Origin: an uncultured Phycisphaerales bacterium
GTDB taxonomy: Bacteria; Planctomycetota; Phycisphaerae; Tepidisphaerales; Tepidisphaeraceae
Direction: 5' to 3'
Length of the DNA: 64,000 nucleotides
Assembly: GCA_903871935.1 (NCBI GenBank)
Contig: CAIQIQ010000081.1
Location: 1-64,000 of the forward strand
Part shown: piece after piece, positions 30,981 to 35,931 of the stretch
How positions within the stretch are numbered: position 1 is the stretch's first letter
How the letters are laid out: every line of letters starts with the position of its first letter
The notes under the pieces: model-generated
Seen by the model: the letters and a program-made list of their open reading frames with translations, nothing else
Databases searched by the model: none
What the model was told of the DNA's origin: nothing
Translations under genes and position numbers: made by a program

Positions 30981-31325
30981 TCAAGGGCCAATTGCGGCCG
31001 GGCCGGCTTCCTTGGTCCGGATGCGGTAGCACGCGTCCAGCGGCAGCACGAAGATCTTGCCGTCGCCCACAGCGCCGGTAAACGCGGCTTCCGTAATGGC
31101 GTCCACCGTCGGCTGGACGAAATCGTCGTTAACGGCAATCTCCAGCTTCACCTTGGGCAGCAGACGGATCATTCCCTGGTTGCCACGATACTGCTCGGAA
31201 AAGCCCCGCTGCGTCCCGCAACCGCGAACATCGGAAACCGTCATCAGAACGACGTCTCGTTCCACGAGCGCGGCCTGGACATCTTCGAACTTGTCCGGAC
31301 GCACGATAGCCACAATCATCTTCAT
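30981..31325 (-). CDS. PII nitrogen regulatory protein lacking Tyr51
   Basis: 114 residues, trimeric sensor of 2-oxoglutarate and ATP/ADP. 'MKMIVAIVRPDKFEDVQAAL', 'LPKVKLEIAVNDD' and 'GDGKIFVLPLDACYRIRT' (ending of the family 'GxGKIFVxxVxxxxRIRT') are all present. In the T-loop, 'GFSEQYRGNQGMIRLLPK', the position of the uridylylated Tyr51 of E. coli GlnB/GlnK is Gly51, while Tyr46 is kept. Covalent control by a GlnD-type enzyme is therefore unlikely; control by effectors alone is inferred. Encoded just after amtB, 85 bases away, so it is probably the GlnK that blocks the transporter. Confidence 0.93.
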   Translation of the reverse strand: MKMIVAIVRPDKFEDVQAALVERDVVLMTVSDVRGCGTQRGFSEQYRGNQGMIRLLPKVKLEIAVNDDFVQPTVDAITEAAFTGAVGDGKIFVLPLDACYRIRTKEAGPAAIGP

Positions 31326-31410
31326 GTCAGTTCCTCGAAAGCGATGGTTCAGGATCGAATCAACTCAGCGGCTTGTCGTGCCGTTCCTGCTGGTTTGAAG
31401 TCACTCGTGT

Positions 31411-33207
31411 CTACTTGCCGGAAACATGGACCGACTTCTTGATCGGCCGTGACCTGCTGACGTTCACCGCAGCGCCGGCAGGAGCTGCCAAAGCGGTAAC
31501 CACATACTCGGGATAGGCCGAGATCCCGTGCTCGTGAAGGTCCATGCCTTCCAGTTCGCCTTCTCTTGAGATACGCAGGATGCCAACGGCGTCCAGCACC
31601 TTGAAGATCGCAAAGGCAATCGCGAAAGTGCTGATGACAATGGTAGCGCTGCCGATGCATTGAGCGGCGAGCACCTTCACTCCACCGCCATAGAGAAGAC
31701 CGGTTAGCGCCGGATTCGATGCGGCGTCGACCACGGGAGTTCCGGTATTCGAGCTACCGGCGGCCGCATACTCACCGCTGGCGAACAAGCCCAGTGACAA
31801 CGTGCCCCAGACACCGCAGACGCCATGTACCGGCCAGGCGCCGATCGGATCGTCAACGCGAAGGTACTCAAGCAGGTCAACTGCCAGAAGCACAATCACG
31901 CCAGCTATTCCACCAAGGATCAGTGACCCCAATGGGCTGACCCAGTAGCAGGGGCAGGTAATGGCCACCAGACCCGCCAGAAAGCCGTTGGTGATCGCAG
32001 CGGCATCCCACTTGCCGGTTCGGATATACATGAAGAAGACGGCGGTCAGGCCTGCGGCACACGCGGCAAGTGTCGTGTTGGCCGCGACGCGAGCGATTCC
32101 GCCAATGTCCATGGCCGACAGTGTCGAGCCCGGGTTGAATCCATACCAGCCAAACCAGAGCAGAAGACCACCACACACGGCTATCGTCAGATCATGCGGC
32201 AGCATCGGCGCGCCGCCATCACGCTTGAACCGGCGCCCAATCCTGGGTCCCAGTACGATTCCGCCGGCCAAGGCAATCCACCCACCGATCGAATGCACGA
32301 CCGTAGAGCCGGCAAAGTCGTGGAAGTTCATGCCCAACATCTCAAGGAACATACCCTTGCCGCCCATGGTGTATAGGAAACCATCCGGACCCCAGGCCCA
32401 GTGCCCGATGATCGGATAAATGAAGCCTGATACGCAGATGCTGTAGAGAATGTCGCCGACGAAGCCGGTCCGGCCGATCATCGTTCCTGAGCAGATCGTC
32501 GATGCACAGTCGGCAAAGGCGAACTGGAAAAGCCAGTGGGCCAGCACCGGAATGCCGGTGGCGCCATACAAGGACATCGCGGTGATGTTCTGCAGGAAGA
32601 ACCAGCTCTTGCTCGGGTCATTGGGATCGTGCCAGCCGATGAAACCATTGCCACCTCCGAACATGAACGCGTACCCGAAGGCATAGTACAACACACCGCA
32701 GAGGCAGGTGTCGAACACGCACTCGACCAGCACATTTACCGTCTCGCGCGATCTGCAAAAACCCGCCTCCAGCATGGTGAATCCAACCTGCATGCCAAAG
32801 ACCAGGAACGCGCCCAGCAGCGTCCAGAGCGTGTTGATCGGATTAATCAGCGGGTTCTTGGCTGTGTCCGACAGATCCGACACCATCACCATGGTCGCCG
32901 AAGGAGCGGTGGTCGCGGCTGCCGGAGCAGCCCCGCCAGTCAGGACATTACCCGCCGGCGCCATGCCGGGCATATTGTCGACTGGAGCCTGAGCGTAAGC
33001 CGGCGTACCCGATACCAGTTGTGGACTCGCCGAGATCAGGGCGGGAACCACGATGACAATTGCAAGCAGCAGCGCCAGGCCCAGGAACTTGCCGACCGCA
33101 ATCGTGGCCGCGAAACGTCGCCATTCCGGATCACCCATCCGGGTCTTCAGCCGAGAGAACTTCGCTGCCAGCGACAGCTTCTCACGCTTGTGTTCACTAC
33201 GTCTCAT
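31411..33207 (-). CDS. amtB: Ammonium transporter
   Basis: 598 residues, longer than the usual 400-450. ATG at 33207 behind GAGGAG. Residues 1-60 contain a membrane span and a signal-peptide-like end ('PQLVSGTPAYAQA'), followed by a Thr/Ala/Pro-rich region up to about 110; the Amt domain then starts at 'NPINTLWTLLGAFLVFGMQVGFTMLEAGFCR'. Pore features are intact: 'GMNFHDFAGSTVVHSIGG' with the Asp and first pore His, and 'GAWPVHGVCGVWGTLSLG' with the second His. Forms a unit with the PII gene behind a sigma-54 promoter, the typical nitrogen-limitation arrangement. Confidence 0.94.
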   Translation of the reverse strand: MRRSEHKREKLSLAAKFSRLKTRMGDPEWRRFAATIAVGKFLGLALLLAIVIVVPALISASPQLVSGTPAYAQAPVDNMPGMAPAGNVLTGGAAPAAATTAPSATMVMVSDLSDTAKNPLINPINTLWTLLGAFLVFGMQVGFTMLEAGFCRSRETVNVLVECVFDTCLCGVLYYAFGYAFMFGGGNGFIGWHDPNDPSKSWFFLQNITAMSLYGATGIPVLAHWLFQFAFADCASTICSGTMIGRTGFVGDILYSICVSGFIYPIIGHWAWGPDGFLYTMGGKGMFLEMLGMNFHDFAGSTVVHSIGGWIALAGGIVLGPRIGRRFKRDGGAPMLPHDLTIAVCGGLLLWFGWYGFNPGSTLSAMDIGGIARVAANTTLAACAAGLTAVFFMYIRTGKWDAAAITNGFLAGLVAITCPCYWVSPLGSLILGGIAGVIVLLAVDLLEYLRVDDPIGAWPVHGVCGVWGTLSLGLFASGEYAAAGSSNTGTPVVDAASNPALTGLLYGGGVKVLAAQCIGSATIVISTFAIAFAIFKVLDAVGILRISREGELEGMDLHEHGISAYPEYVVTALAAPAGAAVNVSRSRPIKKSVHVSGK

Positions 33208-33701: not shown

Positions 33702-33729
33702 TTGACACGCCCGCCCGCACGGCTAGCAT
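33702..33729 (+). promoter_or_regulatory. Promoter of the riboswitch transcript
   Basis: Perfect TTGACA (33702-33707), 16-base spacer, TAGCAT (33724-33729). A start near 33736 lies just before the riboswitch aptamer. Confidence 0.65.
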
Positions 33730-33745
33730 TCCCGCTCTTTGTGAC

Positions 33746-33877
33746 CGCCGAAGTCCGGAGACGGACGCGGGGAACCCAAGGGTCGCGGTGGGAAATCATC
33801 GGCGACCAGGGGCGCAGGGACTGACAAAAGTCCCAGGGCACTTTCAAGCCCCAGCCCGTCAGCTAACCTCGTAGGCG
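33746..33877 (+). promoter_or_regulatory. c-di-AMP riboswitch (ydaO-yuaA type)
   Basis: The conserved blocks of this class occur in order: CGCCGAAGTCC at the 5' edge, GGGGAACCCA (33769-33778), GGTGGGAAATC (33787-33797), AGGGCAC (33835-33841) and the signature GTCAGCTAACCTCGTA (33858-33873). The closing stem P1 pairs CGCC (33746-33749) with GGCG (33874-33877), giving a 132-base aptamer like that of B. subtilis ydaO. The gene downstream is an APC-type transporter with a USP domain, matching the family's known link to potassium and amino-acid uptake. Ligand binding would be expected to lower expression. Confidence 0.88.
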
Positions 33878-33878
33878 C

Positions 33879-33910
33879 GGAACGAAGCAGGCAGATGTCT
33901 GCGGCGTTCC
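33879..33910 (+). promoter_or_regulatory. Hairpin directly after the aptamer
   Basis: GGAACG (33879-33884) pairs with CGTTCC (33905-33910) around an inner stem GCAGA-TG-TCTGC (33891-33902). It starts one base after P1 and may be part of the expression platform; no T-run follows, so a simple intrinsic terminator is not evident. 33911-34078 is a further leader of unknown role. Confidence 0.45.
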
Positions 33911-34078
33911 GGTTGAAAGGGCACAACGCCTCGCTCTCCTGCCGGCCGGGTCGGTAAGGTAGACTGGAGTACTGCTCCTGTCCGCCTGACAGGCCCAATC
34001 GGCCTCTTTCCGAGCGACGTTCGTGCGTAGCCTCTTCCACTGTCTCGCGGGCAGGACCACGCGAACAGTTGGAGTGAG

Positions 34079-34102
34079 ATGCGTTCGGACAATCTACTAT
34101 GA
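34079..34102 (+). CDS. Seven-codon upstream reading frame overlapping the transporter start
   Basis: ATG at 34079 with a well-placed GGAG six bases earlier encodes 'MRSDNLL' and stops at TGA 34100-34102, overlapping the ATG of the transporter (34099) as ATGA. The transporter ATG itself has no ribosome site, so translation by coupling from this leader is a reasonable inference. Confidence 0.4.
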   Translation: MRSDNLL

Positions 34103-35931
34103 ATCCTGAAGTTGCTGCGCCTGCGGGCGACCGCCGGGCGTTGTGGCTCCTTGTGAGTAAGCGCCCGCGAAATGTCGGCTGGCGCCAAGCTGCCGGTCTG
34201 CTCTTTGGCGACTGGGGCACAAGCCGCTTGTATGTTCTGGGGCTGGCGTTCTTCTTTGCCCCGCAAAGCAGCCTCTGGCTCCTGATCGCCATGAGCCTGC
34301 TGCTGCTGGGCGTCGGCTGGGCCTATACGCAGATCTGCCGTGTCTATCCCGATGGCGGCGGCGTTTACTCGGCTGCCAAGAAAGTCAGCCGCAATCTGGC
34401 AGTGATCGGGGCTTTGTTGCTCTTTGCCGATTACGTCGTTACCGCCAGCCTCTCCGCGCTCGACGCCTTCCACTACTTCGGCCTGGAGGCGACGCCATCG
34501 CTCTTTGCCTGGAACTCACCGGGCATGTGGGCCATGGTCGCCATCGCCGTGATCGGTGTGATGAACCTGCTGGGTCCGCGCCATACCGGCGGCTTCGCAG
34601 TCGTGGCCGCGATGGCAATGGTCTGCGCCACCCTTGTCATCACCTGTTATGCTATGCCGCAGATCCACTGGGCCGATCTTCCCGCGCGAGTTGGCCGGCC
34701 CGAAGGCTCCTTCGGCAGCCTCTGGCTGAGCTTCGTGGCCATCGTGCTGGCGCTCTCTGGAGTCGAAGCGATTGGGAACCTCACCGGCGTGATGAAGAAA
34801 CCTATCGGCCGGACCAGCCGCAAGGCAATCTGGGTCGTCGCCATCGAGGTTGCACTCTTCAATGTCGTGCTGGGGATCGCCATGGTCGCCATGCTCCCCA
34901 ACAGCCAGAACGCCGAGCACAAGGAAGACATGATGGCCTTCCTCAGCCGGGCCTACGTAGGCCACTGGCTGGAACTGGCCGTGCGCGGGTTCGGCGGCGT
35001 GTTGCTGCTCTCGGCGGTGAATACAGTGGTCACCGACATGATCTCGCTGCAGTATCTGCTCTCGCGCGACATGGAACTGCCGCGGTTCTTCCAGAAACTC
35101 AACCGCTTCGGCGTGCCCTGGATCGGCGCAGTGATCGCAACACTGGTGCCTTGCGTGGTGCTCGTGGTTTCGCACGACCTGGAGCATCTGGCGGCGCTAT
35201 ACGCGATTGGCGTTGTGGGCGCTGTCGCGATCAACGTCACCCTGGTCGCCCGGCATCCGCGGCTGCATGGTTGGGTGCGCAAGACTGCTGCCAGCGCATT
35301 GGGACTGTTGCTGCTGGCGATCTGGGTCACCCTGGCGACCACGAAGCTGCACGCCTTGCTGTTCGTCTCCATCGTCCTGGCCGTCGGCCTGACCGCCCGC
35401 TGGCTTACCAAGCGCTTTGCTGATCAGAGCACCCATGCCGACCTGCTGCAGCAGGCGATCAGTGAACAGCTCTCGCCTATGGTGTTCAGCGGGCCCAAGA
35501 TCATGGTCGCAACCGCAGGTTCAGCGCAACTGGCAGATGCTGCGCTGGATTACTGCAAACAGCGTGGAGCTGCACTGGTCGTCACGTTCATCCGCGAGAT
35601 CAACCTTACATCCACGGGGCCCGGCGACGCCCGAATGACCATCGAGACCGATCATTCCGCACAGGCGGTGTTCGCCGAGTTTCTTCACGCCGGCCACAAG
35701 CACGGCGTTCCAGTCATCCCCGCATACGATGCTGGATCGAATACGGTTGAACTGCTCGCTGAACAGGCGGCCGTTTGCGGGGTCGACGAGATTCTGCTGG
35801 GCTCCTCGCGCCGAGGGACGCTGCACAAGTTGATCAAAGGAAGCTTCCAGCGCAAGCTTGAATCAATGCTGCCTCCGGAGATCCGCGTGTGCGTGCTTGA
35901 TGTAGCAGTTGGGGATTCAGCCCATCAATAA
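34099..35931 (+). CDS. APC-superfamily transporter with C-terminal USP domain
   Basis: 610 residues. About 12 membrane spans in residues 35-450, opening with 'GWRQAAGLLFGDWGTSRLYVLGL' and 'RVYPDGGGVYSAAKKVSRNLA' (helix 1 and 3 substrate segments of amino acid/potassium APC proteins); 'LALSGVEAIGNLTGVMKKP' is the helix 6 region. From about 465 to 605 lies a universal-stress-protein fold: 'GPKIMVATAGSAQLADAAL' and 'CGVDEILLGSSRRGTLHKLI'. Placed behind a c-di-AMP riboswitch, as are KimA-type potassium importers, whose size is similar (about 607); substrate K+ or amino acid cannot be settled from sequence. Confidence 0.85.
   Translation: MNPEVAAPAGDRRALWLLVSKRPRNVGWRQAAGLLFGDWGTSRLYVLGLAFFFAPQSSLWLLIAMSLLLLGVGWAYTQICRVYPDGGGVYSAAKKVSRNLAVIGALLLFADYVVTASLSALDAFHYFGLEATPSLFAWNSPGMWAMVAIAVIGVMNLLGPRHTGGFAVVAAMAMVCATLVITCYAMPQIHWADLPARVGRPEGSFGSLWLSFVAIVLALSGVEAIGNLTGVMKKPIGRTSRKAIWVVAIEVALFNVVLGIAMVAMLPNSQNAEHKEDMMAFLSRAYVGHWLELAVRGFGGVLLLSAVNTVVTDMISLQYLLSRDMELPRFFQKLNRFGVPWIGAVIATLVPCVVLVVSHDLEHLAALYAIGVVGAVAINVTLVARHPRLHGWVRKTAASALGLLLLAIWVTLATTKLHALLFVSIVLAVGLTARWLTKRFADQSTHADLLQQAISEQLSPMVFSGPKIMVATAGSAQLADAALDYCKQRGAALVVTFIREINLTSTGPGDARMTIETDHSAQAVFAEFLHAGHKHGVPVIPAYDAGSNTVELLAEQAAVCGVDEILLGSSRRGTLHKLIKGSFQRKLESMLPPEIRVCVLDVAVGDSAHQ

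Follow-up and report, generated by a model that had tools for sequence, protein, structure and literature searches.

The question raised by this locus is how a c-di-AMP riboswitch controls the potassium importer gene that begins 207 nt beyond the end of its aptamer, an arrangement that is kept in front of the gene's relatives. The window, meaning the whole stretch of 64,000 nucleotides analysed here, had received a first-pass annotation that joined a promoter, an aptamer, a following hairpin, and a 7-codon frame into one leader. These elements and the gene are positioned as follows.

33702-33729, + strand: sigma-70-type promoter TTGACA-16-TAGCAT, 10/12 consensus, position conserved in relatives
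33736-33892, + strand: c-di-AMP (ydaO-type) aptamer, RF00379, 73.6 bits, E 3.3e-15
33880-33909, + strand: optional hairpin between aptamer stem P1 and stem P8, from fold prediction
34079-34102, + strand: 7-codon frame, ATG 34079 to TGA 34102, proposed as a leader peptide and judged here to be a chance frame
34099-35931, + strand: gene for a KimA-like K+ importer of 610 aa, with an APC transporter domain and a weak Usp domain

The covariance search that the first-pass annotation had proposed as a check on its ydaO-type aptamer bore the call out, since the RF00379 match is full length (model positions 1-134 of 134) and scores 73.6 bits against a cut-off of 38. The promoter was confirmed as well. 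Its TTGACA-16-TAGCAT arrangement occurs once at 33702-33729 where 0.1 would be expected by chance, and a TTGAC box with fitting spacing and a -10 box ending 2-7 nt 5' of the aptamer match was present at 17 of 22 loci, a count over the relatives' loci with the window included. Aptamer and promoter both exceed chance expectation, and the sequence supports a putative c-di-AMP riboswitch transcribed from a dedicated promoter. Neither the aptamer class nor its connection with kimA is new. The hairpin after the aptamer does exist at 33880-33909, but it is an optional insert without conservation in relatives, being absent in L003, L006, L007, and L013 and replaced by other sequence in L005, L009, L011, and L018. 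Immediately upstream of the riboswitch, genes for a P-II regulator and an ammonium transporter run divergently on the - strand (window 30981-33207).

The 610-aa product matched PF13520 at 106.7 bits and PF00582 slightly below its cut-off, and among solved structures its best match is the K+ importer KimA (6s3k, E 1.4e-17, residues 39-494). With an APC-fold domain, a C-terminal Usp-like domain, and KimA as the closest relative, the protein is predicted to be a KimA K+ importer, and the aptamer appears to belong to the 5' leader of a known regulon member. A single diadenylate cyclase is encoded in the genome (DAC domain, 129 bits), by which prediction the organism likely makes c-di-AMP. Transporter homologues align from about residue 13, and the ATG of riboswitch-bearing relatives lies 10-20 codons ahead of the conserved core as it does in the window, so ATG 34099 is very likely the true transporter start. 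As had been noted before, this ATG has no good Shine-Dalgarno of its own (-3.2 kcal/mol).

A search of the + strand from 33892 to 34099 revealed no intrinsic terminator or terminator-like site, so the leader does not conform to the terminator type known from B. subtilis. The earlier suggestion that the platform acts other than by termination is probably right. The B. subtilis ydaO/kimA and B. thuringiensis kdp switches share with the window the aptamer family RF00379, a K+-uptake gene, an own promoter, and an expected OFF response (PMC6488665, PMC9960051). They end in an intrinsic terminator, whereas in the window none was seen and a structured domain follows. This conserved domain, at 33914-34058, had been overlooked in the first-pass annotation and is a likelier platform than the leader peptide. 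Its parts are listed below.

33914-34058, + strand: conserved P8/pseudoknot domain, whole match to covariance model R1, 73.5 bits, a score that is not independent because the window is among the 16 sequences that built the model
33921-33936, + strand: 5' strand of P8, GCAC 33921-33924, AACG 33925-33928, and GCUC 33933-33936, from covariation
33937-33942, + strand: b, UCCUGC, start of the P8 loop and 5' strand of the probable pseudoknot, conserved and complementary to b', with few two-sided changes
33944-34004, + strand: variable hairpin P9 within the P8 loop, from fold prediction
34012-34026, + strand: 3' strand of P8, GAGC 34012-34015, CGUU 34018-34021, a bulged C, and GUGC 34023-34026, from covariation
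34051-34056, + strand: b', GCAGGA, 3' strand of the probable pseudoknot, conserved

Between aptamer and ATG, the relatives have the blocks TGAAAG, GCACAACG, GCUCUCCUGC, GAGC..ACGUU.GUGCG, and GGCAGGAC in common, while P9 varies in length among them and is unusually long in the window. The long stem P8 (GCACAACG..GCUC / GAGC..CGUUcGUGC) displayed strong covariation. It was found by unsupervised alignment and folding of 16 loci, with two-sided changes in 7 of the 10 pairs. Own strands paired at -17.1 kcal/mol compared with -13.6 (sd 0.68) for strands swapped between loci, and none of 20000 swaps was as good. The strands of the swap tests were hand-placed on conserved blocks, a bias against which the unsupervised alignment and fold guards in the case of P8. 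Taken together, P8 and b/b' had 89% of cells paired, as against 29-42% when slid. These results establish stem P8, which would be the first helix of an H-type pseudoknot.

The crossing helix is of a different standing. For b/b' alone, 85% of cells were paired, no two-sided change appeared in the alignment test, and 6220 of 20000 swaps did as well; the two strands are nearly invariant, which means that covariation neither proves nor excludes their pairing. Complementarity is kept with other letters in L007 (CUUCC with GGAAGG) and in L169/L172 (ACUCC with GGAGU). Judged from the sequences, b/b' probably forms the crossing helix of an H-type pseudoknot. Downstream of the aptamer, Rfam yielded no known RNA family and microRNA noise only. 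A spacer hairpin that would bring b' near the ATG was considered and rejected, as the spacer is no more structured than expected (mean z +0.5).

Comparison of one sequence per genus disclosed a mean pairwise identity of 51% for the domain and 57% for the aptamer, against 33% for the spacer to the ATG, 30% for the upstream region, and 27-29% for shuffled controls. In 14 loci, b' lies 42-49 nt 5' of the start codon; five loci (L008, L010, L014, L020, L189) in which the domain is partial or unclear were excluded from counts. The named relatives are Phycisphaerae, including Tepidisphaeraceae and Humisphaera. Within the window's family the domain precedes KimA-like genes, and in four other families it precedes TrkH-type genes (PF02386; L012, L169, L170, L178, L193). 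The window's own genome has a second RF00379 site (G000:C6:72872-73162; L002, L220) that scored 37.6 bits, barely below the cut-off, with the domain at 63 bits, upstream of a kimA paralogue. A sister genome of L012 carries the same aptamer and domain (L004), but its frame stops after 18 codons, where the TrkH-type gene of L012 is intact.

Model R1 matched in 16 of 397 genomes of the class, in all cases at RF00379 loci except one. The exception (G108, E 9e-4) was rejected as a free-standing domain, for the locus has no c-di-AMP aptamer and reads as coding sequence. Over 392 genomes of the phylum the model gave no credible addition, the one match in G499 being weak (E 0.005). All credible occurrences of the domain adjoin c-di-AMP aptamers of Phycisphaerae; the aptamer-adjacent matches are the model-building loci and similar ones, which shows restriction and not independent discovery. 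What is new is a conserved platform of stem P8 and a probable pseudoknot in Phycisphaerae c-di-AMP riboswitches, common to two kinds of K+-uptake gene. Our literature search found no paper joining c-di-AMP and Phycisphaerae; it was thin on subscription papers, and an earlier description is possible.

How the domain might act can be proposed as follows. Transcription would start at the own promoter and place a KimA-type potassium importer under a c-di-AMP riboswitch, probably without an intrinsic terminator. The platform would be P8 with b (UCCUGC) at the start of its loop, pairing with b' (GCAGGA) about 45 nt before the start codon as an H-type pseudoknot. At high c-di-AMP (K+ replete), ligand binding to the aptamer would favour the fold of P8 and pseudoknot, and translation of the importer would drop. 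When c-di-AMP is scarce, b would probably pair with the adjacent upstream tail (AGGGC with GCUCU), leaving the start region open; the 7-codon frame would have no role. We put the chances of such an OFF switch on importer translation, working through the P8/pseudoknot domain, at about even. The OFF direction is suggested by analogy, c-di-AMP riboswitches of K+-uptake genes elsewhere being OFF switches (PMC6488665, PMC9960051). We infer the switching partner of b, as well as the action on translation and its effect on the ribosome. The tail pairing is possible in most relatives and weak in L169, L170, and L193. Pairing of b with the 3' strand of aptamer P1 as the alternative state was dropped because 90 loci offered it no support in a swap test.

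The closest precedent is the translational c-di-AMP riboswitch reported for C. glutamicum nlpC, a cell-wall peptidase gene, which like the window has no terminator. There, CTCC was proposed from one sequence to pair either with an upstream GGAG or, in a pseudoknot, with the GGAG of the ribosome site (PMC9960051). In the window, by comparison, b' sits about 45 nt before the ATG, and the arrangement includes a large stem, P8, backed by covariation.

In L169/L172 the equivalent of b' is a GGAG 8 nt before the ATG, which resembles a Shine-Dalgarno and fits a blocking role. Most relatives, like the window, have b' about 45 nt ahead of the ATG, too far away to be the gene's own Shine-Dalgarno, so that any blocking would have to affect how the ribosome lands; alternatively, 30S and S1 might be recruited by the pseudoknot. 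Recruitment would make the pseudoknot a standby landing site for 30S/S1 ahead of a weak start without structure, with the aptamer controlling its formation. The constant distance of 42-49 nt and the spacer free of excess structure agree with this, as does the precedent of E. coli tisB, whose standby translation depends on a 5' pseudoknot (PMC7708055). The tisB pseudoknot is likewise of the H-type and likewise sits in the 5' leader, away from the start codon; it is not a riboswitch, it promotes translation, and we claim no sequence relation to the window. Pairing would, on the other hand, block rather than help in L169/L172, and since the c-di-AMP switches known for K+ genes turn expression OFF, the ligand would have to disrupt the fold. 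Recruitment is therefore possible but doubtful.

An action of the domain on transcription, through Rho, pausing, or a non-canonical terminator, would agree with the terminating switches of B. subtilis and B. thuringiensis (PMC6488665, PMC9960051) and with the U-tailed terminator hairpins that sister families have at the same place after the aptamer (L151, L158, L160, L161). From these hairpins it follows that Phycisphaerae use at least two kinds of platform. The window locus itself has no U-tract hairpin, however, and a transcriptional role does not explain why the spacing between b' and the start codon is conserved, so we regard it as unlikely.

The domain could also be a functional module of its own, either a second sensor or a ribosome/S1-binding device, attached by Phycisphaerae to the c-di-AMP aptamer before different potassium-uptake genes; we are inclined to doubt this too. 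Its sensor version, in which the domain either forms a tandem with the c-di-AMP aptamer or extends it, is suggested by conservation near the aptamer level, short invariant blocks, and occurrence before two unrelated K+-uptake gene families. Tandems of Na+-I and c-di-AMP aptamers do exist (PMC9337991), and in that of Dehalobacter a structured RNA adjoins the c-di-AMP aptamer as it does here. The Na+ aptamer lies upstream and has its own terminator, and an alternative pairing of the right shoulder of P1 was proposed (PMC9337991); the window's domain lies downstream and matches no Rfam family. That lack of Rfam resemblance, and the fact that the domain is never credibly found without a c-di-AMP aptamer, unlike an independent aptamer, make a second sensor improbable.

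The first-pass annotation suggested that the platform may act through a leader peptide, with the 7-codon frame translated under control of the aptamer and re-initiation at the overlapping transporter ATG; the frame, a GGAG at 34071-34074 before its ATG, the overlap with ATG 34099 as ATGA, and a transporter ATG without a good ribosome site are all present, but the comparison with relatives and the base rates both speak against this mechanism, which we rejected as highly improbable. A comparable ATG frame is absent in the own-genome paralogue (L002), in the same genus (L024), and in L003, L006, L009, L011, L013, L018, and L178, that is, in nearly all relatives. L009 and L011 keep GCGAAC...GTTCGGA as a predicted hairpin without the ATG, and L170 has an overlapping frame of 3 codons. 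Within the window, a short overlapping ATG frame occurs at 4 of 60 large ORFs and at 4.3% of all ATGs. Good ribosome sites were seen in only about 30% of the first-ATG starts of large ORFs, for which starts are approximate; with about 70% lacking one, the absence at 34099 needs no leader peptide. The frame is thus real as sequence, unconserved, compatible with chance, and best read as such.

Other c-di-AMP leaders of the Phycisphaerae were observed alongside. Canonical leaders with a tail:CUCUC hairpin followed by a GGAG-type ribosome site occur at L143, L144, L146-L148, L150, L159, L163, and L165. At the canonical loci the tail:b hairpin received modest swap support (265/20000), and pairing of b with the Shine-Dalgarno was discarded because own strands did no better than swapped ones. 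In the window's family, the riboswitches of L015, L017, L026-L030, L185, and L203 come with a simple P8-like hairpin together with a good Shine-Dalgarno, and precede a short protein (77 aa in L027) without a Pfam match. Two c-di-AMP riboswitches are arranged back to back, one on each strand with about 100 nt between them, at G020:C163:4368-4846 (L005, L025). In L158, L164, L166, and L167 the riboswitch is followed by very short, putative kdpF-like frames and then kdpA, as identified by eye, an order that resembles the B. thuringiensis kdp switch.

Most knowledge of how c-di-AMP riboswitches work concerns terminators, and the pseudoknot of the reported translational example from C. glutamicum was only proposed (PMC9960051). 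Here, five families have kept a platform that combines a covarying stem with a probable pseudoknot, ahead of two unrelated types of K+-uptake gene, which makes a translational mechanism testable by simple b/b' swaps. If the proposed mechanism is true, the platform of a riboswitch, generally its quickly evolving part, can show nearly the conservation of an aptamer.
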